Source: Patescibacteria group bacterium (GTDB lineage: Bacteria; Patescibacteriota; Minisyncoccia; RBG-13-40-8-A). Taken from it: a stretch of 40,095 nucleotides of DNA. Position numbers and translations under genes: made by a program. Under the pieces are notes generated by a model that saw only the letters and a list, made by a program, of their open reading frames with translations, searched no databases and had not been told where the DNA came from. Below are positions 20,586-23,652 of this stretch, piece by piece; position 1 is the first letter of the stretch; every line of letters begins with the position of its first letter. The stretch covers positions 1-40,095 of the forward strand of contig JAKJED010000005.1 of NCBI GenBank assembly GCA_022705575.1, read 5' to 3'.

Positions 20586-22292
20586 ATGTCAATAAAAGAC
20601 GAAGGACAAAAACAAAAAGCAGAGGCCAAAATAAAATCACTCCATCGCGATGCTGAAGAACAAAAAGCTAAAAACCTAGCCGAAGAGCTGGGTTTTCCTT
20701 ATTTAGATTTACGAATTTCCACAATTGACGATGAAGCATTAACTATTTCCAACGAAAAAGACTCAAAAAACGCGGGAGCGGCAATTATTGAAGAAAAACA
20801 AAAAGAGCTTTTTGTTGTCGTTTTAGATCCACGCTTAAAAGAAACTTTAATTTTTGTTCAAAATCTCGAGAATAAAGGATATAAAGCAACAATAAATGTT
20901 GTTTCCTTAAGCAGCTTAAACAGAGTATGGAGCAGATTCCAACACGTTAAACCCGATAGAAAAGAAATTTCCAGAAAAGCCGAAATCAGCGCCGAAGAAT
21001 TAAAACAAATTGAAGGAGGAATAAATACCATTGAAGATTTGAAACAAAAATTGGAACAACCAAATTTATCGACAAGCGATCTGTTAAACATTGTTATGGC
21101 CGCAGGATTAAAATTAGAAGCATCAGATATACACCTTGAAAACGAATCAACAAACACAACCCGTTTAAGATATCGATTAGACGGAATTTTGCAAGACGCG
21201 GCAAACATTTCGTTATCAGCATACCAATTGTTACTTTCAAGAATAAAAATGCTTTCAGAATTAAAATTAAACGTGCACGATGTACCGCAAGACGGCAGAT
21301 TCAGTTTCAAATCTTCTGCCGAATCAGAAGAAAGCAAAGAAATCGAAATCAGAACCTCAATTATTCCCGCTAATTACGGAGAGAACATTGTTTTAAGAAT
21401 TTTAGACCCAAAAACAATTGGATTGGAAGTTGGGGATTTGGGCATTCAAGAATATGACTTTAAGATTATAACCGAAGAATTAAAAAAACCCAATGGCATG
21501 ATTATTACCACCGGCCCAACTGGTTCCGGTAAAACTACTTTATTGTATGCGTTTTTGAAAGCAGTAAACGATCCCGGCTCAAAAATTATTACACTTGAAG
21601 ACCCGATTGAATATCATCTCAAAGGAGTGGAACAAACGCAAGTTGATTCAGAAAAAGGATATACTTTTGCTTCTGGTTTGCGTTCTATTCTGCGCCAAGA
21701 CCCAGACACTATTCTTGTTGGAGAAATTCGTGACAATGAAACAGCAACAACCGCAATTAATGCTGCGCTTACGGGACATTTGGTGTTTTCTACCCTGCAT
21801 ACCAACGATGCGGCTGGAGCAATCCCGCGTCTAGTTGATATGAAAGTAAACCCAACCATGATTCCGCCAGCACTAAACCTGGTAATTGCACAAAGATTGT
21901 TAAGAAAGGTTTGTCCAAAATGTTCTCAAGAGATAAAACCAACCAAAGAAATCCTGCAAAAAATTCAAGACGAATTAAAAAATTTACCCGCCCGCGCCAG
22001 TGAAACGGTTAACATGGCAGGCAGACCAAAATTAGATGATATTAAAATTAAACAGGCATCGGGGCAAGGATGCGCTTATTGCAATTTTACGGGATACAAA
22101 GGAAGAGTCGGCGTTTTTGAACTATTTGTTGTTAACGATGCAATGGAAAAAGTTGTTTTGAAAACTCCGTCAATTGTTGAAATCAAAGAATCAGCAATAA
22201 AATCGGGGATGGTTTTAATGAAGCAAGATGGACTTTTAAAAGTATTGCAAGGAATTACTACGATGGAAGAAGTAGAAAGAATTTTAGGATAA
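20586..22292 (+). CDS. pilB: Type IV pilus assembly/secretion ATPase (PilB/GspE family)
   Basis: The 568-residue protein has a variable N-terminal domain (MshEN-like; LAEELGFPYLDL), then a hexameric ATPase core: the sheet region ASDIHLENE, the P-loop GPTGSGKTTLLY (about residues 313-324), an Asp box LEDPIEY, Walker B ILVGEIRDNETA and a His box THLVFSTLHTND-like segment. It also has the zinc tetracysteine pattern (CPKC ... CAYC). PilB powers pilus extension. No other pilus genes are in the window. CPR cells commonly use type IV pili for host contact (family knowledge). It ends beside the terminator of the opposite-strand RNA gene. Confidence 0.93.
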   Translation: MSIKDEGQKQKAEAKIKSLHRDAEEQKAKNLAEELGFPYLDLRISTIDDEALTISNEKDSKNAGAAIIEEKQKELFVVVLDPRLKETLIFVQNLENKGYKATINVVSLSSLNRVWSRFQHVKPDRKEISRKAEISAEELKQIEGGINTIEDLKQKLEQPNLSTSDLLNIVMAAGLKLEASDIHLENESTNTTRLRYRLDGILQDAANISLSAYQLLLSRIKMLSELKLNVHDVPQDGRFSFKSSAESEESKEIEIRTSIIPANYGENIVLRILDPKTIGLEVGDLGIQEYDFKIITEELKKPNGMIITTGPTGSGKTTLLYAFLKAVNDPGSKIITLEDPIEYHLKGVEQTQVDSEKGYTFASGLRSILRQDPDTILVGEIRDNETATTAINAALTGHLVFSTLHTNDAAGAIPRLVDMKVNPTMIPPALNLVIAQRLLRKVCPKCSQEIKPTKEILQKIQDELKNLPARASETVNMAGRPKLDDIKIKQASGQGCAYCNFTGYKGRVGVFELFVVNDAMEKVVLKTPSIVEIKESAIKSGMVLMKQDGLLKVLQGITTMEEVERILG

Positions 22293-22316
22293 TCAAAAAC
22301 CCCGCCATCAGCGGGG
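22293..22316 (-). terminator. Terminator of the minus-strand RNA gene
   Basis: Read on minus, CCCCGC (arm 22316-22311), a 5-base loop and GCGGGG (22305-22300) are followed by TTTTTG. On plus there is no T-run, so it terminates minus-strand transcription and not pilB. Confidence 0.8.
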
Positions 22317-22554
22317 CAAGCTCCTTCCCAATAATCTGTAGGCAAGTGACATCGGCTTAGGATCCGAAGTTTAGAAATTTTCCGAGGAATACTCCAGCTA
22401 AAACCTCAACAAGGAGGAAACCGGAATATCCTAAACTAAGAAAAGTTCCAAAGGGTAAATTTTAATAAAAAATTTTGGTTACCCTTATTGCCTACAGGTT
22501 ATTAGAAAGGAAGTATAAATAAAAATAGGTCATTTTTGCCTATTTCTATTCTCT
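22293..22554 (-). ncRNA. Structured non-coding RNA between ruvB and pilB (family unknown, 6S RNA possible)
   Basis: There is no ORF here, but there is a full RNA-gene architecture on the minus strand: a consensus promoter (22561-22589), a likely start near 22554 and a terminator at 22293-22316. The core is closed by a 16-bp helix (22330-22345 with 22488-22503, one G-U pair) extended by CTTCC/GGAAG (22324-22328 with 22509-22513), enclosing a core of about 190 nt. Inside are an AAGGGTAA/TTACCCTT hairpin (22451-22486), a 7-bp AGTTTAG/CTAAACT helix (22368-22374 with 22431-22437), TTCCG/CGGAA and a TCGG/CCGA hairpin. A 5' hairpin (AAATAGG/CCTATTT) precedes the core. Motifs of SRP RNA, RNase P RNA and tmRNA are not seen. 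Size, rod-like closing stem and strong promoter make 6S RNA the first family to test. Confidence 0.75.
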
Positions 22555-22560
22555 GTGCTT

Positions 22561-22589
22561 ATTATAGCAGAGAAAAATAACCTTGTCAA
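22561..22589 (-). promoter_or_regulatory. Consensus sigma70 promoter of the RNA gene
   Basis: On minus, a perfect -35 TTGACA (22589-22584), a 17-base spacer and a perfect -10 TATAAT (22566-22561). It points away from ruvB, toward the structured RNA. Confidence 0.88.
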
Positions 22590-22641: not shown

Positions 22642-23652
22642 ATGTTCACTGATCCCCGTCAACAATTAGAAGACAACACACTAGACAAAACTTTGAGGCC
22701 AAATGAGCTTACAGAGTATTTTGGTCAAGAAAAGGTCAAAAAAAATCTTAAAGTTCTGCTTGAAGCGGCAAAAAAACGCGAAGAAGCAGCAGAACACATA
22801 TTATTGTATGGCGGTTCAGGATTAGGGAAAACAACCCTGGCGCACATTATTGCCAAAGAACTCGGAAGAAATATTAAAATTACTTCCGGACCGGCAATTG
22901 AAAAGGTCGGCGACCTTGCTTCGATTCTCACCAATCTTGAAAAGGGCGATGTTTTGTTTATTGATGAAGCACATCGCTTAAATAAATTAATTGAAGAATA
23001 TTTGTATCCAGCAATGGAAGATTTTCATTTAGATATTATTATTGGCAAGGGCCCGTCAGCACGCAGTATCCAACTAGACATTCCGCCGTTCACAATGATT
23101 GCTGCAACCACTCGCATTAGTTTATTGTCATCACCTTTACGAAATCGTTTTGGCGCAACATACCATTTAGATTTTTATGAAGAAAAAGACATTGAAGATA
23201 TTTTAAACAGATCAGCAAAAATTTTAAATATTGAAGCTGATAGAGAAGGACTGAAAGAAATTGCCAAAAGAGCAAGAAAAACGCCAAGAGTGGCAAATCG
23301 TTTATTGAAAAGAGTCAGGGACTATGCTCAGGTCCACGGACAAGGTAAAATAAATAAAAAAATCACTGAAGAAGCATTAGGGATGATGGAAATTGACGAA
23401 TTGGGATTAGAACCAATCGACAGATTGATTGTAAAAACAATTATTGAAAAATTTAACGGCGGACCGGTTGGGATTGAAACTATTGCTGCCGCAACATCCG
23501 AAGAACGCGACACTATTTCCGATATTTACGAACCCTATTTAATGCAAATTGGTTTTCTCGCCCGCACCCCGCAAGGCCGTATCGTCACTCCCGCTGCTTA
23601 CAAACACCTCGACCTCAAACCACCCAAATCCGAACAAGAAAAGTTGATTTAA
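22642..23652 (+). CDS. ruvB: Holliday junction branch migration helicase RuvB
   Basis: The 336-residue protein is a typical Ruv[19 protein letters not shown] at the start, Walker [13 protein letters not shown], Walker [12 protein letters not shown], sensor [18 protein letters not shown], and the winged-helix end [25 protein letters not shown]...[16 protein letters not shown]. It is the hexameric motor that drives branch migration with RuvA. It lies apart from ruvA (14.4-15.0 kb) and ruvC (28.0 kb). Confidence 0.97.

Follow-up and report, generated by a model that had tools for sequence, protein, structure and literature searches.

The described RNAs closest to the one reported here include 6S RNA and the RNA-polymerase-binding RNAs of Actinobacteria. 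6S RNA (RF00013) resembles it in size (about 160–200 nt), long closing stem, own promoter, single locus and 3'-side hairpin, and in Firmicutes the 6S gene adjoins rarA (PMC8414754). Ms1 and CoRP are independent, lineage-specific RNAs that bind RNA polymerase (PMC9130861, PMC11077062); like the new RNA they are structured and confined to their lineage, and Ms1 shares with it the possession of conserved neighbours. By description, however, Ms1 resembles 6S and has a central bubble, whereas the new RNA forms a branched junction. Bacterial SRP RNA (RF00169) is, like the new RNA, of housekeeping type with paired ends, but its helix-8 motif is missing from the new RNA; RNase P RNA and tmRNA show a similar constancy as housekeeping RNAs and are encoded at different loci. 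Both ffh and ffs are reportedly absent from Parcubacteria (PMC4508563).

Here, we analysed a 40,095-nt stretch of DNA (the window) from a Patescibacteria group bacterium. The window and its relatives belong to a class that we take to be the one called Parcubacteria or Paceibacteria. Our preferred reading is that the window holds an independent gene for a non-coding RNA, that its family is absent from Rfam 15 and occurs once per genome across Paceibacteria, and that the RNA would act in trans, serving as a scaffold or decoy for protein; taken as a whole, function included, we hold this reading to be about evenly balanced.

A predicted RNA gene on the minus strand between pilB and ruvB

The RNA gene is located on the minus strand, in the gap between pilB and ruvB, and the gene neighbours were identified via Pfam. 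The features of the locus are as follows.

20586–22292, plus strand: pilB (type II/IV secretion ATPase), convergent and just downstream of the RNA in 82 of 86 members
22642–23652, plus strand: ruvB, divergent and upstream of the RNA in 80 of 86 members
22584–22589, minus strand: −35 hexamer TTGACA, read in the sequence and kept in relatives
22561–22566, minus strand: −10 hexamer TATAAT, extended (TG before it), 17-nt spacer, read in the sequence and kept in relatives
22513–22554, minus strand: predicted 5' leader, with the start at about 22554 inferred from the −10 hexamer
22321–22512, minus strand: conserved RNA core (blastn conservation at 22322–22512 within the family; model matches)
22488–22512, minus strand: closing helix P1, 5' strand (consensus fold, covariation)
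22321–22345, minus strand: closing helix P1, 3' strand (consensus fold, covariation)
22451–22486, minus strand: hairpin P2, stem 22486–22480 with 22457–22451, absent in some members
22372–22450, minus strand: long arm P3 with the conserved asymmetric loop UUAG-N4-GGAUA / UAUUCCUCGG
22352–22367, minus strand: hairpin P4, UCGG-AUCCUAAG-CCGA
22295–22317, minus strand: separate intrinsic terminator hairpin, stem 22317–22299 followed by T5

A preliminary description of this DNA had proposed a full RNA-gene layout, and the perfect promoter, the strongly folding core and the intrinsic terminator were all confirmed on the minus strand. The TTGACA-17-TATAAT promoter (22589–22584 and 22566–22561) agrees with the sigma-70 consensus at 12 of 12 positions, with TG ahead of the −10 hexamer, and the GC stem followed by T5 was likewise found as described, at 22317–22299. 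The minus-strand segment 22560–22293 folds at −102.1 kcal/mol, compared with −62.0 ± 5.2 kcal/mol for 200 dinucleotide shuffles (z = −7.8), and 0 of the 200 shuffles reached an energy as low.

The RNA recurs as a single gene in most Paceibacteria

A blastn search over 55 genomes yielded five clear homologues from the same family and order, and a covariance model (R1) was built from these and the window. R1 matched 140 of 238 sampled Paceibacteria/Parcubacteria genomes at E ≤ 0.1, with E-values mostly between 1e-8 and 1e-27 outside the window's own order. A second model, R2, was run on a phylum sample and matched 15 of about 32 class genomes versus 2 of about 348 others. Thus, by blastn and by both models, the RNA is kept in relatives of the window. 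R2 also detected members missed by R1 (G012, G026, G017, G041 and others), so the prevalence in the class exceeds 59%; the class genomes with no match may reflect model sensitivity or true loss. As a rule, R1 found one gene per class genome, antisense-strand matches aside, and no second match at E ≤ 1e-6 was present in the 498 kb around 86 matches, except the RNA's own antisense strand.

Both R2 matches outside the class (L173 and L174), which come from other classes of Patescibacteria, retain P1 together with the motif UAUCCUCG/UACUCCUCGG of P3 and have neither P2 nor P4. L173 lies at most about 1.1 kb from ruvB, and the promoter of L174 scores 10/12. They are plausible, if unproven, ancestral or reduced members, and the occurrence of two such reduced P1 + P3 forms suggests that the RNA predates the class. 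A separate pattern scan of genome contigs returned eight loci, of which four were relatives already found and four, in other phyla, were taken as chance.

Because promoters were not used by the homology searches, they provided an independent check on the matches. All six founding members (the window and the five homologues) carry −35 and −10 hexamers upstream, scoring from 10/12 to 12/12. Among the 86 members, 83 score at least 9/12 and 73 at least 10/12, the latter against 10 of 430 shuffles. The leader between promoter and core ranges from 0 to 84 nt across the members.

In about half of the long-leader members, a hairpin lies between promoter and core, often followed by a U run. Examples are the window, at about 22551–22517, and the leaders of L003, L004, L005, L117, L105 and L140. 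This hairpin could be an early terminator, an attenuator or a bidirectional terminator.

At the other end, the 3' strand of P1 reaches a nearby U run in 72 of 82 members; therefore, P1 usually doubles as the terminator. The window, in contrast to most of its relatives, has a separate terminator hairpin. The predicted transcripts have a median length of 201 nt, and that of the window would be about 260 nt because of its extra leader hairpin and separate terminator.

Fold and covariation of the RNA

The consensus fold of the six founding members consists of the closing helix P1 and the hairpins P2, P3 and P4. P1 is a single continuous helix of about 25 positions (22512–22488 with 22345–22321). 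The 16-bp helix of the preliminary description (22330–22345 with 22488–22503) contains one C–A mismatch and hence 15 pairs; since it belongs to this continuous helix, the outer 5-bp helix is the outer end of P1 and not a separate element. Minimum-energy folds contained P2, P3 and P4 in 60 of 86 members and were without P2 in about 18. P3 ends in a UNCG-type cap in most distant members and in an extended hairpin in the window. The bases that vary least are those of P1 at the junction, where the sequence is conserved (CUGUAGGCAAU / AUUGCCUACAG), the basal GG of P3, GG..A / UCCUC in the asymmetric loop of P3, and UGG/CUGG beneath the cap.

Covariation, likewise a check on the matches that the homology searches had not used, was assessed in 37 members aligned with MAFFT from sequence alone. 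Paired cells amounted to 90.7%, versus 75.2% in the shuffled and 40–53% in the slid controls, and double-changed cells numbered 343, versus 112 and 83–119, respectively. Double changes occurred in 41 of 52 pairs. For P1 alone, 21 of 24 pairs carried compensatory changes, supporting the closing helix as first proposed. Moreover, single P1 pairs flip fully, for example from G–C (56) to C–G (29), among 86 model-aligned rows in which the alignment leans to the structure.

In the window's own family, the P4 loop is visibly complementary to the P3 5' strand (AUCCUAA/UUAGGAU). A pseudoknot or switch between the two was rejected, as own pairs were no better than swapped partners in 37 sequences (p = 0.25).

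Gene order and relocated members

Wherever pilB and ruvB flank the RNA among the 86 members, their orientation relative to it is constant. Since synteny did not enter the homology searches, it is a further independent check. Conservation, covariation and synteny together exclude chance, and the locus is almost certainly a real RNA gene.

The preserved order pilB–RNA–ruvB across the class, and a 3' end of the RNA that abuts or slightly overlaps the end of pilB, would also suit a cis-acting element, namely a bidirectional terminator, an insulator or an antisense regulator of pilB/ruvB. We consider this unlikely, however: the RNA has its own near-consensus promoter throughout, and its conserved structure far exceeds the needs of a terminator. 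In addition, three relocated members of one family (f31; L093, L102 and L111) lie away from pilB and ruvB and keep both RNA and promoter, which makes a cis role on these genes unlikely. Retention of the promoter in the relocated members indicates that the function of the RNA is independent of its neighbours and argues for a trans-acting RNA.

By eye, the relocation site adjoins a yqgF/ruvX-like gene, again placing the RNA near a Holliday-junction gene.

Comparison with Rfam families and 6S RNA

A search of the window against Rfam 15 gave no family at or above its gathering threshold, 6S included, and permissive settings gave chance-level matches only. Among 20 distant relatives, likewise, no family was found, the single weak match (E 0.13) being under its threshold. 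We therefore regard the family as very probably distinct from those of Rfam 15. A description of the RNA was not found in the papers searched, and it may have been reported earlier as an unregistered motif.

The statement that motifs of SRP RNA, RNase P RNA and tmRNA are not visible agrees with the lack of any family match at the locus. Identity with RNase P RNA or tmRNA was ruled out, as both were matched at other loci of the same genome (RF00010 at G000:C26:3350-3722 and RF00023 at G000:C18:31476-31833). RF00169 was found in 0 of 55 class genomes and 0 of 145 phylum genomes. This blank leaves the slot of an SRP RNA open, and a closing helix with branches would fit a divergent form. Even so, such an identity is highly improbable: ffh and ffs are both reported missing from Parcubacteria, and the new RNA has no RF00169 match, no GNRA-capped helix 8 and no AGCAG motif, its caps being UNCG-type or extended.

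The blank for RF00169 in the 145 Patescibacteria genomes is in keeping with the loss of SRP that has been reported for Parcubacteria.

The relation to 6S RNA required closer comparison. RF00013 had no match at the locus, in the window's own genome or in the 20 relatives. In the class it gave two sub-threshold matches with the canonical core GGGA..CACCCACCU, and in the phylum sample 17 matches in 192 genomes; a CPR-based 6S-like model (R3) was built from these class and phylum matches. With R3, 48 of the 238 class genomes yielded a 6S-like RNA, and 36 of these carry the new RNA at a separate locus. The 36 include G006, from the window's order, with a weak 6S-like match (E 0.004). Among the best 30 of the 6S-like matches, read by eye, nearly all contain GGGA..ACCCACCU, the 6S core, or a close variant of it; of the complete matches, most show a closing stem and a 3' hairpin. 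Furthermore, R3 found no core of the new RNA, and R2 found no 6S.

An identity with 6S had been floated on the basis of size and closing stem, and several features invite it: a length of about 200 nt, a long helix closing the ends, a small 3'-side hairpin, a strong promoter and an AAA+ recombination gene next door, as rarA is in Firmicutes. The RNA could then be the divergent 6S of the class, or a paralogue of 6S, blocking RNA polymerase as an open-promoter mimic. We find this improbable. The new RNA and a 6S-like RNA coexist at separate loci in 36 genomes, so the new RNA is not 6S, and neither model matches the other's RNA. The 6S core GGGA..ACCCACCU around a central bubble is missing from the new RNA, whereas the class's 6S-like RNAs at other loci have it. 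In place of the large, two-sided unpaired bubble of 6S, the new RNA has a multi-branch P1/P2/P3/P4 junction, and members with no P2 have so few unpaired bases on the 5' side that almost no 5' bubble strand is left. For the window's own genome, where 6S was detected by neither RF00013 nor R3, the exclusion rests on homology to the members that coexist with 6S. The suggestion that the RNA, if not 6S, belongs to a new CPR RNA class is therefore supported by the Rfam 15 blank and by the 6S-like RNAs at other loci.

6S-like RNAs proved widespread in Paceibacteria (L157, L158 and L190–L219), although under the RF00013 cut-off; 0 of 73 genomes had a match over that cut-off, compared with 48 of 238 with the CPR-based model.

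Discussion

Comparison between genomes establishes, at the level of sequence, the promoter, fold, covariation, synteny and single copy of the RNA, and we infer the protein-binding role from the conserved paired and loop bases only. In the proposed mechanism, the RNA would be transcribed from its own strong sigma-70 promoter up to the U run after P1 (in the window, through a further hairpin) and would fold into a junction of P1, an optional P2, P3 and P4. An abundant RNA, which fits the class-wide promoter strength, the single copy and the strong structural constraint, may then serve in trans as a scaffold or decoy for protein, probably recognised through the P1 end at the junction and through the asymmetric P3 loop. 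The likeliest partner would be part of the general machinery, either the ribosome or RNA polymerase, a natural guess given the precedents of Ms1 and CoRP. For the trans-acting protein-binding role itself, the case may fall either way in roughly equal measure.

Protein binding is favoured over base pairing because the constant bases are those of helices and of an internal loop, not those of an exposed seed. A small RNA that base-pairs in trans would make use of the exposed loops of P4 and P2, but no loop sequence is kept class-wide as a seed, and conservation peaks in inner P1 and P3; we judge this alternative improbable as well. A special case of the scaffold or decoy reading is a second type of RNA-polymerase-binding RNA, parallel in function to Ms1 or CoRP and unrelated to 6S. 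Independent RNAs of this kind have precedent, and the constitutive promoter and the long, rod-like P1 and P3 would fit, but no conserved promoter-like open region was found and the junction is branched, so that we consider it fairly unlikely. Tentatively, and at somewhat less than even confidence, the RNA may be a further housekeeping RNA of Paceibacteria, possibly predating the class, which has no known counterpart and assembles into an RNP with one of the core machines, for example RNA polymerase or the ribosome.

Among uncultured bacteria with tiny genomes, Paceibacteria form one of the largest groups. A single copy in most of them, a near-perfect promoter and a fixed position point to an important cellular role, one that is invisible to annotation by known RNA families. 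In addition, 6S RNA is present but overlooked in Paceibacteria. The alignment and structure make the new RNA directly testable and would add a new family to Rfam.
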